Positions 35,294 to 41,531 of a stretch of DNA of 64,000 nucleotides are shown here, in pieces. The stretch lies in the NCBI GenBank assembly GCA_902561765.1, contig CACEQR010000005.1, positions 1-64,000 of the forward strand, given 5' to 3'. Both the position numbers and the translations under genes were made by a program. The notes beneath the pieces were generated by a model, which was not told the origin of the DNA, did not search any database, and was given only the letters and a program-made list of their open reading frames with translations. Every line of letters begins with the position of its first letter. Position 1 is the stretch's first letter. Origin of the DNA: an uncultured Pelagibacteraceae bacterium (GTDB taxonomy: Bacteria; Pseudomonadota; Alphaproteobacteria; Pelagibacterales; Pelagibacteraceae).

Positions 35294-35343
35294 ATTGTAT
35301 ATTTTTAACTTAAGTGGTACTTTGCGACATTATTTTTTACCAT

Positions 35344-35631
35344 ATGACGATAGATCTTAAAACTGTAAAACACATATCAAAATTAGCAAGAATCTCACTT
35401 GAAGAAAAAAAAGCCGAAAAATTAGCAGATGATATGAATTCCATATTTGAATTTATTGAAAAATTAAACGAACTAAAAACTGATAATGTTGAACCACTAA
35501 CTTCTATAGCTGAGACTACTTTAAGACTAAGAGAAGATAAAATAACTATTGATAATATAAGAGAAAAGATTCTTAAAAATTCTCCTGAAAAAAATAACGA
35601 TTTTTTTGTAGTACCGAAAGTAGTTGATTAA
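35344..35631 (+). CDS. gatC: Asp/Glu-tRNA amidotransferase subunit C
   Basis: Small belt subunit of GatCAB, 95 aa. The ATG at 35344 gives the family-typical start ([21 protein letters not shown]); ten further in-frame codons upstream look untranslated. [20 protein letters not shown] is the conserved C-terminal half. Its stop overlaps gatA by one base. Confidence 0.95.
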
Positions 35632-37088
35632 TGACAGAAATAACATCTTTAAGCCTTTTTGAATTAATTAAAAATATAAAAGAAAAGAAAATATCATCAA
35701 ATGAAGCTACAAAATCTTTTGTTGATCGAGGTGAAAAGTCAAAAAAACTAAATGTATATGTAACTGAAAATTTTGAAAATTGTCTTAAACTTTCAAAAGA
35801 GTTTGATAATAAACCAAATTTTGATTTAAAACTTCCAGGCATTCCAATAGCTGTTAAGGATCTTTTTTGTACAACCGATGTACGAACAACTGCAGGAAGC
35901 AATATTCTTAATAACTTTATCCCAACATATGAGTCAACTGTTACTCAAAATATTTGGAACGAAGGTGGTATTTTATTGGGTAAACTTAATTGTGATGAAT
36001 TTGCAATGGGATCATCTAATGAAACAAGTTTTTTTGGCAATGTTCAAAACCCAATCGCAAAAGATTTAGTTCCTGGTGGATCATCTGGTGGTTCTTCAGC
36101 AGCTTTAGCAGCTAATTTAACACCTGTAACAATAGGTACTGACACTGGTGGATCTATTAGGCAACCTGCCTCCTTCACTGGTACAGTAGGACTAAAACCT
36201 ACTTATGGAACCTGTTCAAGATATGGAATTGTTGCTTTTGCATCATCTCTAGATCAAGCAGGTCCAATGAGCAAAGATGTTAAAGATAGCTCCATTCTTT
36301 TAGAGGTGATCTCATCATTTGACAAAAAAGATTCAACCTCAATTGATTTTAAAAGAAATAATTATTCATCAGAGCTAACTAGAAATATTAAAGGTTTAAA
36401 AATCGGTATTCCAAAAGAATACAGAATTGATGGGATGCCAGACGAAATTGAGAAACTTTGGAAAAAAGGTATTGAGTATGCAAAAGATTGTGGAGCAGAA
36501 ATAATTGACATTTCATTACCTCATACTAGCTATGCTTTGCCAACTTATTATATTGTAGCGCCAGCTGAAGCATCATCTAATTTAGCAAGATATGATGGTG
36601 TTAAATATGGTCTAAGATCTTCTGGGAAAAATTTAATTGATATGTATGAAAAAACTAGATCAGAAGGCTTTGGTGAAGAAGTAAAGAGAAGGGTAATGAT
36701 TGGCACCTATGTCTTATCTTCTGGATATTATGATGCTTACTATCTTAAAGCTCAAAAGGTTAGACAATTAATTAAACAAGATTTCGATCAAGCTTATAAT
36801 AAAGTAGATGCTATTTTGACACCTTCAACACCTAGTTCTGCATTTAAAATAGGAGAAAAATCTAATGATCCAGTTTCAATGTATTTGAATGATATATTTA
36901 CTGTTCCAGTAAACCTTGCAGGTTTACCTGGGATTTCAATACCTGCAGGTGTAGATAAAAATAATTATCCATTGGGTTTACAAATAATAGGTAAACCGTT
37001 TGATGAACAAACAGTTTTAAATATTGCTTATTCAATGGAGGAAAAAATCAATTATAAAAATAATATAACTGATTGGTGGATGAAATAA
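35631..37088 (+). CDS. gatA: Asp/Glu-tRNA amidotransferase subunit A
   Basis: Glutaminase subunit releasing ammonia for transamidation of misacylated tRNA, 485 aa. The amidase signature is complete: the catalytic Lys in IAVKDLFCT (about residue 75), [16 protein letters not shown] (about 148-163) and [16 protein letters not shown]. Translationally coupled to gatC and gatB by one-base overlaps. Confidence 0.98.
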
Positions 37089-38563
37089 TGTCTAAAAATA
37101 ATTCGGAATATTTAATTGAAAGAAATGATAATGTTTATGAAGTTGTTATAGGACTTGAAGTTCATGCTCAAGTAACATCAAATTCAAAACTTTTTTCATC
37201 TTCTTCTACAAAATTTGGTGCTGAACCTAATACTCAAGTGAGCTTAGTTGATGCAGCTTTTCCAGGTATGCTTCCAGTAATTAATGAATTTTGTGTTAAA
37301 CAAGCCATAAAAACTGGTATTGGTTTAAAAGCTAAGATCAATAATAAGTCTGTTTTTGATAGAAAGAATTATTTTTATGCAGATTTACCTCAGGGTTATC
37401 AAATTTCACAATATAAATACCCAATCGTGGGTGAGGGTAATGTTATTTTGGATATGCCTGAAGGTCAAAAACAGGTTGGAATAGAAAGATTACATTTAGA
37501 GCAGGATGCAGGTAAAAGTATTCATGATATCGATCCTAGTAATACACTAGTTGATCTTAATAGATCGGGTGTAGCTTTAATGGAGATTGTTAGTAAGCCT
37601 GATCTAAGATCACCAGATGAAGTGAATGCTTATATAAAAAAACTTAGATCTATTATGAGATATTTAGGAACTTGTGATGGGAACATGCAAGAGGGATCAT
37701 TAAGAGCCGATGTTAATGTGTCTGTAAGAATAAAAGGCTCAACAGATTTAGGAACAAGATGTGAAATAAAAAATGTTAATTCTATAAAATTCATGCAAAT
37801 GGCAATTATTTATGAAGCAAATAGACAAGTTGATTTAATAGAAGAAGGTGAAGAAATAGATCAAGAAACAAGGCTTTTTGATACAAAAAAAAATGAAACA
37901 AGATCAATGAGGTCAAAAGAAGACGCTCATGATTATAGATACTTTCCAGATCCAGATTTACTTCCATTAGAAGTTACGGATGAATTTATTGATAAACTAA
38001 AATCTGAAATCCCTGAATTACCAGATGATAAAAAGAAAAGATTTATTGATGAATTTAAAGTGTCACCTTATGATGCAACAATATTGGTCTCAGATATTGA
38101 TACAGCTAAATATTTTGAAGAAGTTGTTGCCAAAATGGGTAAAAACCGTGACATGAAACTAGCCGTAAATTGGATTACAGGAGAATTATTTGCAGTTTTA
38201 AATGAAAAAAATATTGAAATTGCTCAAAGTCCAATAAGTGCAAAAAATTTGGCAAAATTGATTAATTTAATTAAAAATGGAACAATCTCAGGAAAAATTG
38301 CTAAGACAATATTTGAGTTAATGTTAGATGGTGACATAGACCCACAAATAATTGTTGAGGAAAAAGGGTTAAAGCAAGAAAGTGATCCAAAAGCATTAGA
38401 GGCATTAATTGATAAAATAATCAATGATAACAGAGAAAAAGCCATTGAGTATAAACAAGGAAAAGAAAAGCTATTTGGTTTCTTTGTGGGACAGGCAATG
38501 AAAGCTTCTGGTGGAAAAGCTAACCCTCAATTAATTAACGAAATATTAAAGAAGAAACTTTAA
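37088..38563 (+). CDS. gatB: Asp/Glu-tRNA amidotransferase subunit B
   Basis: Kinase/tRNA-binding subunit of GatCAB, 491 aa. [39 protein letters not shown] and DVNVSVR mark the catalytic part; the C-terminal YqeY-like tail ends [16 protein letters not shown]. The ATG at 37088 overlaps the gatA stop; a TTG 15 bases upstream is less likely. An intact GatCAB implies that Gln-tRNA and/or Asn-tRNA is made indirectly. Confidence 0.98.
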
Positions 38564-38586
38564 TTTAAATAAACCTATAGTCATTA

Positions 38587-38592
38587 TATAAT
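38587..38592 (+). promoter_or_regulatory. Consensus -10 box 8 bases before the O-methyltransferase ATG
   Basis: A perfect TATAAT at 38587-38592 lies in the 37-base gap after gatB, with TTTAAA 17 bases upstream (38564-38569) as a poor -35. Initiation 6-8 bases downstream would fall at or within two bases of the ATG at 38601, giving a leaderless or nearly leaderless message for the O-methyltransferase-trhO pair. Confidence 0.4.
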
Positions 38593-38600
38593 TAAAATAG

Positions 38601-39251
38601 ATGGGAAAGAATATTGAAATTTCTGAAAAAATTGAAAAATATATTAATAATTTTAGTTTTAAACTAAACTCAGTTCAAAAAGAAATCATAGATTATAATA
38701 ATACCCTTGGAAATGAAAAGAGAATGCAAGTAGCAATATCTCAATGTCATTTTCTCCATTTAATAATAAAAATATCTAATATAAAAAATGTACTTGAGAT
38801 TGGAACTTTTACTGGTTTAAGCGCACTATCTATTGCGCTTGCACTTCCTGATGATGGAAAACTTACAGCACTTGATAAAGACAAAGAGACAAACAAGATT
38901 GCAGTAAGTTTTTTTAAGAAAGCTAATCAAGATAAAAAAATTCAAACGATTGTAAAACCTGCGCTAGATAGTTTAGATGAATTAAAAAAACAAAAATATG
39001 ATATGGTTTTTATTGACGCTGATAAGCTTAACTATAAAGAATATTATGAAAAATCATTAAAGATAATAAAAAAAGGTGGTTTGATCATTATTGATAATGT
39101 TTTATGGCATGGTGAAGTTGCAGATGAAGATAATATGGATAAATTTACATTAAATATTAGAGAATTGAATGAGCATGTATCAACTGATGAAAGGGTAGAA
39201 CAAATAATTATCCCATTAGGAGATGGAATGACTGTTTGTAGGGTTTTATAA
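38601..39251 (+). CDS. Class I SAM-dependent O-methyltransferase, possible TrmR-like wobble-uridine enzyme
   Basis: 216 aa enzyme of the caffeoyl-CoA O-methyltransferase type (methyltransferase family 3). SAM motif I is VLEIGTFTGLSALSIALAL. FIDADKLNYKEYYEKSL and IIIDNVLWHGEV carry the usual metal ligands Asp/Asp/Asn. The gene overlaps trhO by one base (TAATG). In Bacillus subtilis a same-sized member of this family, TrmR (YrrM), methylates 5-hydroxyuridine in tRNA. With TrhO next door that is the best functional guess, but small-molecule substrates are possible. The family is certain; the substrate is inferred. Confidence 0.88.
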   Translation: MGKNIEISEKIEKYINNFSFKLNSVQKEIIDYNNTLGNEKRMQVAISQCHFLHLIIKISNIKNVLEIGTFTGLSALSIALALPDDGKLTALDKDKETNKIAVSFFKKANQDKKIQTIVKPALDSLDELKKQKYDMVFIDADKLNYKEYYEKSLKIIKKGGLIIIDNVLWHGEVADEDNMDKFTLNIRELNEHVSTDERVEQIIIPLGDGMTVCRVL

Positions 39252-40153
39252 TGTTCAATATTTTTGGTTTTTATAAATTTAAAAAACTCAATAATCTTAA
39301 AAAATTAAAAAATAAATTAGAAAATAATCTTAAAGATTATGAAATTAGAGGAACAATAATAATTTCATCCGAAGGAGTTAATGGAACAATTTCAGATAAG
39401 AAAAATAACCTTTTAAAATTCAATAAACTTCTAAAAAAAATACTATCTATAAAAAAATTTAATTCAGAAAATAATTCTTATAGTAAATTTAATCCATTTC
39501 ATAAACTTAAAATTAAAATCAAAAAGGAAGTTGTTCCAATGGGTTTTAAGGTTAGAAACTACAATTATCCTAAGAACAACCTGAATCCAAGGGAATGGAA
39601 TAAAATAATTAAAAAAAAGAATACAGTTCTGATAGATGCACGGAAATCTTTTGAGTATGATGTGGGTACTTTTAAAAAATCTTTAAATCCAAATATAGAA
39701 AACTTTCGTGAATTTCCTAAATATTTAAATCAATTTAAAAATAGTGAAAATATAGCAATGTTTTGTACAGGTGGTATCAGGTGCGAAAAAGCAAATATTT
39801 ATTTGAAAAAAAAAGGATTTAAAAATGTATATGTTTTAAAAGGTGGAATTATTAACTATCTGAATAATATTAATAAAAAAAATAGTCAATGGAGCGGTGA
39901 ATGTTTTGTTTTTGATAATAGAGTTTCAATAAAATATGGCTTGAAGCAGGGCAGTTATTCAATTTGTAGTGGTTGCAGAAAACCAGTTTCTATCAAAGAA
40001 AAAAAATCTTCTAAATATTTAGAAGGCATTCATTGTCCAAAATGTCACGATTATTTAACAGATGATCAAAAATCAAGATTTGCAATGAGACAAAAGCAAA
40101 TAATACTTGCAAAAAAAACTGGCAAGAGACATATCTTTAAAAAAGAATATTAA
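39251..40153 (+). CDS. trhO: tRNA uridine-34 5-hydroxylase TrhO (YceA-type rhodanese)
   Basis: O2-dependent enzyme forming 5-hydroxyuridine at the tRNA wobble position. 300 aa with an N-terminal YceA domain (RGTIIISSEGVNGTISD) and a rhodanese domain whose active cysteine is C172 in FCTGGIRCEKANIYLKKKG. The C-terminal part has two CxxC pairs (CSGCRKPV and CPKCHD), probably a zinc site. Coupled to the O-methyltransferase upstream. Plain sulfurtransferase activity is a less likely alternative. Confidence 0.93.
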   Translation: MFNIFGFYKFKKLNNLKKLKNKLENNLKDYEIRGTIIISSEGVNGTISDKKNNLLKFNKLLKKILSIKKFNSENNSYSKFNPFHKLKIKIKKEVVPMGFKVRNYNYPKNNLNPREWNKIIKKKNTVLIDARKSFEYDVGTFKKSLNPNIENFREFPKYLNQFKNSENIAMFCTGGIRCEKANIYLKKKGFKNVYVLKGGIINYLNNINKKNSQWSGECFVFDNRVSIKYGLKQGSYSICSGCRKPVSIKEKKSSKYLEGIHCPKCHDYLTDDQKSRFAMRQKQIILAKKTGKRHIFKKEY

Positions 40154-40169
40154 TTAAATTATAATTTTT

Positions 40170-41531
40170 ATGGATTTGCTTAAAGAAAATATACCTTTAC
40201 TTGTTAGAAAACTTGCAATTCCAGCAAGTGTAGGTACGCTTTTTCAAACCTTATACAATATTGTTGATACTTTTTATTCAGGATTAATCTCGCCCCAAGC
40301 ACTTTCTGCGCTCAGTAAATCATTTCCAATATATTTTATTATTGTAGCAACATCAATTGGAGTAACAGTTGCAGGAACTTCCTTAATAGGGAATAGTATT
40401 GGAGAAAAAAAAGAAAAAAATGTATCTTATTATTTTACCCATATTATTATCTATGGACTGATCATATCAGTTTTTATTACATTTATAGGTCTCTATTTTT
40501 CAAAAAAAGTATTTATTTTAATGGGATCAACTGAAGAAATTACAAATTTAGGTCTTCAGTATACAAATATTATGTTTTATGGATCATTTCTTTTTTTTCT
40601 TGTCGTTTCTTTAAATTCTTTATTGCATGCAGAAGGTGACACAAAAACTTATAGGAATGTTTTAGTTCTGAGTTTTCTTTTAAATATAATTTTAAATCCT
40701 ATTTTAATATTTGGGTTTTTATTTATTCCTGCTATGGGGATGATGGGAATAGGTTTATCAACAATTATTGCGCAATTAATCGCATTTCTTATTATTCTTT
40801 TTAAAGTTTTACAAAACCCACGAGTTAAAAAAATTACAATTGATTTTTTTAAAGTAAAATTAATTTTTTTAAAAAATATTTTCTTTCAATCAATGCCAAT
40901 ATCAATCGCAATATGTGGATATGCAGTTGCTGCTACATTTATATTTACTTATGTTGGTCAGACAAGTGAACTAGCAGTTGCTGGTTATGGTGCAGCTACG
41001 AGAATAGAACAGGTTGTTTTACTGCCAATACTTGGAATAAATACTGCAATAATCTCAATTATAGCTCAAAACTTCGGTGCAAATAACTTTGATAGAGTGA
41101 AGGAAACTTATTTTGTTTCAGTTAAATATGGACTCATTTTGATGATTTTTTCAGGAGCATTGGTTTATTTAACAGCTGATTTAGTTCCAAGATTTTTTTC
41201 TAGTAATGAAGTGGTATTAGAATACGGAAGAAGGTATCTAAAAATTGCAGCTTTCATATTACCTGCTTATCCAATTTTCTTTTTATCAAATGGTTTTTTT
41301 ATGGGTTTGAAGAAGTCAAATTATGCAATGATCAATAATATGATGAGAAATGTACTTGTTCCAATATGTGTATTTTATTTAGCTAAATACTTATCAGCAG
41401 ATTTTGATACTTTTTTTTGGCTTTGGTTTATTTTTCAATGGACTCTATCCATACTCTTATTTTCTTATGTTAGTTATTATATAAAAAAAAAACTAGATAA
41501 ATCTAGCACTGTCTTTAATCCACAACCATAA
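40170..41531 (+). CDS. MATE-family efflux transporter
   Basis: Na+ or H+ driven multidrug/metabolite exporter of the inner membrane, 453 aa with about 12 hydrophobic helices in two repeats. The start LLVRKLAIPASVGTLFQTLYNIVDTFYSGLI and the repeat mark LPILGINTAIISIIAQNFGANN are typical. The substrate is unknown. Its last 39 bases are antisense to the end of soxG, so the two transcripts collide. Confidence 0.93.
   Translation: MDLLKENIPLLVRKLAIPASVGTLFQTLYNIVDTFYSGLISPQALSALSKSFPIYFIIVATSIGVTVAGTSLIGNSIGEKKEKNVSYYFTHIIIYGLIISVFITFIGLYFSKKVFILMGSTEEITNLGLQYTNIMFYGSFLFFLVVSLNSLLHAEGDTKTYRNVLVLSFLLNIILNPILIFGFLFIPAMGMMGIGLSTIIAQLIAFLIILFKVLQNPRVKKITIDFFKVKLIFLKNIFFQSMPISIAICGYAVAATFIFTYVGQTSELAVAGYGAATRIEQVVLLPILGINTAIISIIAQNFGANNFDRVKETYFVSVKYGLILMIFSGALVYLTADLVPRFFSSNEVVLEYGRRYLKIAAFILPAYPIFFLSNGFFMGLKKSNYAMINNMMRNVLVPICVFYLAKYLSADFDTFFWLWFIFQWTLSILLFSYVSYYIKKKLDKSSTVFNPQP

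Follow-up and report, generated by a model that had tools for sequence, protein, structure and literature searches.

Does the pair of overlapping genes at positions 38601-40153 of a 64,000-nucleotide stretch of an uncultured Pelagibacteraceae genome (the whole stretch analysed, hereafter the window) encode a complete route from uridine to 5-methoxyuridine (mo5U) at wobble position 34 of tRNA? In B. subtilis, TrmR methylates 5-hydroxyuridine at this position (ho5U34) to mo5U34. The original prediction for the window held that an O-methyltransferase (OMT) of the same type as TrmR, lying behind its own TATAAT box and coupled to the uridine hydroxylase TrhO, performs the whole conversion and would replace the cmoA/cmoB route of E. 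coli.

The OMT gene (38601-39251, + strand, ATG start) encodes a protein of 216 aa which matches Pfam PF01596 (Methyltransf_3; SynOMT/CCoAOMT-like) at 221.5 bits against a cut-off of 22, and the following gene (39251-40153, + strand, ATG start) encodes the oxygen-dependent tRNA uridine(34) hydroxylase TrhO of 300 aa. The TAA stop of the first gene (39249-39251) and the ATG of the second (39251-39253) have one base in common in TAATG (39249-39253, + strand); the coordinates of the reading frames confirm the overlap. Among 19 loci of the family, this one-base overlap is found at 13 junctions, a longer overlap at four, while at the other two the genes abut or stand one base apart. The one-base overlap suggests that translation of TrhO is coupled to that of the OMT.

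Upstream of the pair lies gatC-gatA-gatB (35314-38563, + strand), in which gatB was identified by Pfam (PF02934/PF02637) while gatC and gatA are putative names based on position. gatB stands 5' of the OMT gene in all 19 family loci that reach that far (20 loci including the window), and the two genes overlap or are at most 5 bp apart in 17 of the 19; the gap is 37 bp in the window and 39 bp in locus L045. Gene spacing therefore points to a single operon, gatC-gatA-gatB-OMT-trhO, whose genes would be co-transcribed, with gatCAB as its 5' part. A TTTAAA-17-TATAAT match is indeed present at 38564-38592, before the OMT gene, but the region contains 16 promoter-like matches as compared to 14.5 ± 4.4 in shuffled sequences, and the tight gatB-OMT spacing in 17 of 19 loci leaves no space for a promoter. 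The match is thus at chance level for such AT-rich DNA, and an own promoter for the OMT gene was rejected. On the 3' side, trhO is followed in the window by a gene for a MATE family transporter (40170-41531, + strand; TIGR00797 over cut-off). In three family relatives a redoxin/AhpC-TSA gene is present at this place instead (L032:2372-2851, L041:3484-3960 and L046:3554-4030), another redox gene adjoining TrhO.

The identity of the hydroxylase is well defined, as it matches the NCBIfam equivalog NF001133 at 257.7 bits (curated cut-off 170) and also PF17773. E. coli TrhO needs the basic residues K112 and R114, and a basic strand is conserved in the window's protein with K87 and K91 invariant (window numbering, not that of E. 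coli). Two CxxC pairs are present (C239/C242 and C262/C265), along with a CTGGIRC loop at residues 172-178 (39764-39784). C172, T173, G175 and R177 of this loop are invariant in all 17 aligned rows and are the counterparts of C200, T201, G203 and R205, which PMC6599085 gives as essential in E. coli TrhO. UPF0176_N and rhodanese domains with a CTGGIR loop are common to E. coli TrhO (YceA), L. pneumophila Lpg2838 (4f67; E 4.8e-59 with the window's TrhO) and the window's protein. Judging from its family and the conserved essential residues, the window's TrhO probably hydroxylates tRNA U34.

Conservation within the order was followed in 147 genomes, 94 of the window's family (f1, including the window's own genome) and 53 of a second family (f2); completeness is 90% or more for 105 of the 147, and 84% for the source genome. 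TrhO is present in 126 of them, 89 in f1 and 37 in f2. An OMT lies directly upstream of TrhO on the same strand in every one of the 89 TrhO-bearing f1 genomes sampled, with 5-17 bp between the two domain matches, where the adjacency count takes the listed PF01596 matches down to 65 bits and leaves weaker ones out. TrhO is missing from five f1 genomes. One of these carries a piece of the OMT at a contig end beside gatB; the other four show no PF01596 match either, and may have lost the pair or have gaps in their assemblies. Since identity to the window's proteins drops to 42% (OMT) and 47% (TrhO) within f1, the arrangement is old and has been kept. The genomes of this lineage are 1.0-1.5 Mb in size, and the pairing of OMT and trhO in the window's family is beyond chance.

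In f2, no OMT was found beside TrhO in any of the 37 TrhO-bearing genomes (of 53) among the listed PF01596 matches of at least 65 bits; TrhO therefore works there without an OMT partner. A Methyltransf_3 protein of f2 (L033:1899-2531, L037:1869-2525, L036:2102-2764) was considered as the missing TrmR and rejected as a COMT, being 39.5% identical to chain 3bwy, which we take to be human COMT, as compared to 20% to TrmR; its best 26 PDB matches are all COMT chains. By Pfam, a class I methyltransferase gene and one resembling flavin monooxygenases lie beside this COMT gene, and a further ORF of the group may encode a flavin oxidoreductase. At 15 of 22 examined f2 TrhO loci (for example L010:1792-2661 and L030:1784-2605), the same-strand upstream gene belongs to one cluster; both of the members that were tested encode an acyltransferase.

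B. subtilis TrmR (YrrM) resembles the window's OMT in being a SAM-dependent Methyltransf_3 protein of similar size and the same fold, encoded with a U34 hydroxylase, and both carry the D/D/N letters of the metal site. In identity, however, the OMT is closest to SynOMT (3cbg, 45.1%) and Coxiella 3tr6 (45.3%), both compared over partial chains as are some other reference rows, followed by two plant enzymes (38-40%), 8k1f, which was deposited as a tRNA 5-hydroxyuridine methyltransferase (31.3%), and TrmR itself (27.1%). D139 (39015-39017), D165-N166 (39093-39098), K142 and W169 are invariant in all 14 family rows, the roles assigned to them being those usual in the family. D139, K142, D165 and N166 are present in 12 of 12 family rows and in 4 of 4 TrmR-group rows, and as the metal-site D/D/N/K residues are common to nearly all 84 rows compared, they are not diagnostic. 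The surrounding letters differ: a D-x-D-K motif (DADK) and W169 (LW), as in SynOMT, occur in all 12 family rows, whereas the TrmR group has DAAK and LF/LY in 4 of 4 rows (DAAK/LF in TrmR), letters which were read off these four chains and are not a published definition. OMT-like site letters are found in SynOMT, SafC (5log), 3tr6 and the caffeoyl-CoA OMTs, all of which are known or, as by their entry titles, supposed small-molecule enzymes. No counterpart of the basic loop of TrmR (EPKRRRR) was found in the family's OMT. Net charge was uninformative as a sign of RNA binding, ranging from -6 to +19 within the family with TrmR itself at -7.

The AlphaFold model of the OMT (mean pLDDT 92.5) gives a similar picture, with SafC (5log; Z 33.3, rmsd 1.4, 215 aligned), SynOMT (3cbg; Z 32.9, rmsd 1.6, 210 aligned), 3tr6 (within the same Z range, 32.9-33.3) and 2hnk as its top structural matches, tied within Z 1. 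TrmR 5zw3 follows at Z 28.5 (rmsd 2.1, 205 aligned), a lower rank which by itself excludes nothing. Of the 14 rows of profile A1, 12 (the window and 11 relatives) entered the trees, as such or in the form of a near equivalent, and two of the trees draw the OMT outside the TrmR clade. In a quick tree of 84 rows the family forms one clade (SH-aLRT 96) away from TrmR, and in a careful tree of 52 rows, for which 32 of the 84 had been dropped beforehand, the TrmR clade (100/98) is sister to a 39-row clade (85/96) that contains the family on a weak branch (70/11). A careful tree of 39 of the 84 rows, chosen to skip AT-rich, long-branch rows and made without the AT-rich 8k1f and the most AT-biased family rows, joins the family with SynOMT-type rows at 100/99.9. 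AU tests in which the family and TrmR were held together gave p values of 0.929 (84 rows) and 0.727 (52 rows), both with likelihoods above that of the free tree, and 0.077 with a likelihood below that of the free tree for the 39 rows without 8k1f. Because these tests do not reject the joining, it is less the topology of the trees than the identity, the fold score and the letters of the active site that set the OMT apart from TrmR. Taken from sequence and model, these three place the OMT with SynOMT, SafC and the caffeoyl-CoA OMTs; it is a metal- and SAM-dependent methyltransferase of catechol type and probably not a TrmR by descent. The assignment to the type of TrmR was therefore not upheld, and the grouping with catechol and other small-molecule enzymes counts against the original prediction.

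Outside the family, the OMT and TrhO do not travel together. In a class sample of 240 alphaproteobacterial genomes, TrhO is present in 80, and 88 have a relative of the OMT by profile A1 at an E value of at most 1e-15; with the three f1 members left out, such relatives occur in 21 of 77 TrhO-bearing and in 64 of 160 TrhO-lacking genomes, so that no co-occurrence is seen across the class and the relatives have other jobs there. An A1-type OMT is absent from 56 of the 77 TrhO-bearing genomes, and CmoB over its cut-off from all 77; the ho5U34 of these 56 is either an end product or passed to an unrecognised enzyme. Among the 60 of the 77 non-family TrhO loci that were fetched, an OMT adjoins TrhO in one (G178), and none of the other 17, judged by coordinates, adjoins a listed OMT. 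Conservation of the pair across SAR11 and Alphaproteobacteria, which the original prediction had offered as a check, thus holds throughout the window's family and was rejected for the wider class.

The few links seen elsewhere are of a different kind. In G178 the OMT gene stands head-to-head with trhO, the starts being about 43 bp apart if the methionine of METYLIA, chosen inside a longer ORF, is taken as the TrhO start. Two of the 80 best among the named OMT relatives listed, from a Rivularia and from Plectonema radiosum, have a convergent trhO in their flanks, and TrhO is present in 30 of 50 searched genomes of OMT relatives, including 21 of 24 cyanobacteria. With the cyanobacterium Goleter, in which a second OMT copy is convergent with trhO, the link is found in three of the 21 TrhO-bearing cyanobacteria, counted in TrhO-centred loci spanning 1.5 kb on either side. 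The three cyanobacterial links may go back to one event, as their OMT copies form a cluster. This cluster also takes in the copy of Nostoc foliaceum, which does not adjoin TrhO in the stretch examined. They and the G178 link are weaker than the operon. The two OMT copies of Goleter apudmare (L304:107-772 and L223) are both of this branch, one of them being that convergent with TrhO. As for carriage by viruses, only one partial OMT relative was found, at the edge of one contig.

These observations bring forward a different explanation, namely that the OMT is an ordinary small-molecule methyltransferase of catechol type, fixed in the operon by chance, with ho5U34 as the end product of TrhO. Its nearness in sequence and fold to SafC, SynOMT and the plant catechol/caffeoyl-CoA OMTs and its catechol-type site letters are in favour of such a role, as are the wide spread of relatives in genomes without TrhO, the f2 TrhO without an adjoining OMT, and the 56 of 77 other TrhO-bearing class genomes that have no A1-type OMT, none having CmoB over cut-off. 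However, coupling in 89 of 89 genomes of so small a size (1.0-1.5 Mb), the repeated linkage of the same OMT type to TrhO in other genomes and the presence of gatCAB upstream, with no biosynthetic neighbours, speak against a chance association, which we consider rather unlikely. The gatCAB context would also suit an OMT that methylates a protein or rRNA, with TrhO coupled for its expression level only, and an O-methyltransferase of Anaplasma is said in PMC6543040 to act on an outer-membrane protein. That enzyme, if it is PDB 4oa5, sits in another clade than the window's OMT, and the recurrent links to TrhO favour the product of TrhO as the substrate, leaving a protein or rRNA target very improbable.

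A GST-like gene adjoins trhO on the same strand in 20 of the 60 non-family alphaproteobacterial loci (19 downstream and 1 upstream), with a four-base overlap including the stop codon in 10 of the 20, and is found anywhere in the fetched stretch in 24 of the 60 (L081-L140; for example L116:944-1621, L089:2902-3546 and L104:1009-1644). The one such gene tested has GST_N and GST_C by Pfam and is weakly glutaredoxin-2-like. The GST-like protein could supply electrons for the O2-dependent hydroxylation by TrhO; the literature search returned no paper title suggesting a link between GST and TrhO. The coupling in 20 of 60 loci implies that a gene may be coupled to trhO without encoding the following enzyme of the pathway.

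We examined what else could produce or consume ho5U34 in these bacteria. TrhP (peptidase U32) was found in none of the 147 order genomes, while 8 of 14 controls match. The CmoB equivalog TIGR00452 (cut-off 275 bits) is over its cut-off in none of the 240 class genomes, the source genome and two f1 members included, and E. coli alone among 14 controls passes it; two class genomes, G191 and G292, have matches at an E value of 1e-20 or lower, which were rejected because they cover part of the model and fall well short of the cut-off. The broader family PF08003 exceeds its low cut-off of 23.8 bits in 65 of the 147 order genomes, but the listed matches are partial and reach at most 45.4 bits, and controls such as Lactococcus and Haloferax also match; they are probably other methyltransferases. 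In the source genome, no protein but the window's OMT exceeds the cut-off for Methyltransf_3. As this genome is 84% complete, absences in it lean on its relatives. The search for the CmoB half of the cmoA/cmoB route thus came out as anticipated. The idea that the pair would replace this route was overstated, since CmoB is below its cut-off in all sampled Alphaproteobacteria and no local route to be replaced is seen.

The tRNA set of a 99% complete relative (G003) indicates where a modified U34 could be of use. UGC is the only Ala tRNA and UGG the only Pro tRNA found there, U34 and G34 tRNAs serve the boxes of Val, Thr, Ser and Leu, and no C34 tRNA was found for any of these six boxes, in a set of 33 matched places at two of which ARAGORN named no tRNA. 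Codon use, counted over 51 long ORFs of the window, gives GCU 41.8% of Ala codons and CCU 36.4% of Pro codons. Because xo5U-type bases are stated to widen the reading by U34 (PMC6599085), the Ala and Pro tRNAs are likely targets of the modification.

We therefore propose the following route, whose reactions, their order and target tRNAs are all predicted. The OMT and trhO genes would be the promoter-distal genes of a translation operon (gatCAB-OMT-trhO). TrhO, to judge from its family and essential residues, would use O2 to convert U34 to ho5U in the U34 tRNAs of four-codon boxes, and the OMT would then methylate the 5-hydroxyl of ho5U34 to give mo5U34, being TrmR-like in action without having the site of TrmR. 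The gain would probably lie in decoding by wobble, Ala and Pro having a single tRNA each. Four points suggest ho5U as the substrate of the OMT: its coupling to TrhO is fixed, no other consumer of ho5U is recognised, links between this OMT type and TrhO recur, and trhO-OMT fusions have been published. It seems reasonably probable to us that the OMT is a functional stand-in for TrmR making mo5U34 on tRNA; we hold this reading back from a firmer grade because its site is of catechol type, many of its relatives occur without TrhO, f2 has TrhO with no OMT beside it, and TrhO elsewhere has GST-like coupled neighbours. The earlier view that the pair performs the whole conversion thus keeps its support from a conserved operonic pair, the absence of TrhP and of CmoB over cut-off and a single Methyltransf_3, and loses its premise of a TrmR-like OMT.

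An OMT of the same pathway could also have a different target, either free ho5U released when RNA is turned over or a wobble base that carries a further modification. The mycobacterial Rv0187, an OMT outside the TrmR group, converts free ho5U to mo5U with no detectable (no significant) activity on ho5U in tRNA, according to PMC6543040. The window's OMT is coupled to a tRNA enzyme and gatCAB and not to nucleoside salvage genes, and we consider such a target quite improbable.

In comparison to known systems, the stand-in proposed here differs in the partner and probably in the descent of the methyltransferase. trmR of B. subtilis lies beside trhP1/trhP2 (PMC6599085), whereas the OMT of the window's family lies beside trhO; B. 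subtilis has TrhP1/TrhP2 plus TrhO (YbfQ). The product of E. coli TrhO feeds CmoA/CmoB according to the same paper, and CmoB is below cut-off in the window's group. A TrhO with a TrmR-kind OMT and no TrhP is already in print: PMC6599085 describes yceA-trmR (trhO-trmR) fusion genes in the oomycete Phytophthora and the diatom Phaeodactylum, and trmR without trhP in Ehrlichia canis. These resemble the window in combining TrhO with a Methyltransf_3-type OMT in the absence of TrhP, although the two proteins are fused in Phytophthora and Phaeodactylum and encoded by separate, overlapping genes in the window. Our literature search found no published account of so fixed a pair in this family, of its association with gatCAB or of a SynOMT-branch enzyme in this role, nor a measurement of mo5U or a described wobble xo5U modification in these bacteria.

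More tentatively, and with more doubt than confidence, the OMT may represent another lineage of O-methyltransferases for tRNA ho5U34 besides TrmR, one which arose on the SynOMT/caffeoyl-CoA OMT branch, is coupled to TrhO and makes mo5U instead of cmo5U in Gram-negative, streamlined bacteria and likewise in some cyanobacteria. By extension, COMTD1 and the vertebrate homologues of TrhO, reported in PMC6599085, could form a comparable eukaryotic pathway; human COMTD1 (2avd) scores 202 bits to profile A3, as compared to 124-131 for the TrmR chains 5zw3 and 8k1f. If the stand-in role of the OMT is true, it predicts mo5U in these bacteria, means that the ho5U methylation step can fall to an OMT branch other than that of TrmR, and would explain how genomes with a single Ala and a single Pro tRNA could decode the full box of four codons. 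Annotation of such OMTs as caffeoyl-CoA or catechol enzymes would then call for caution. The source bacteria are probably small and marine. The window also contains a match to the rpsL sRNA family RF01823 (7105-7190, 86.4 bits), a family which we take to have been described from Pelagibacter and which is in line with a SAR11 origin.
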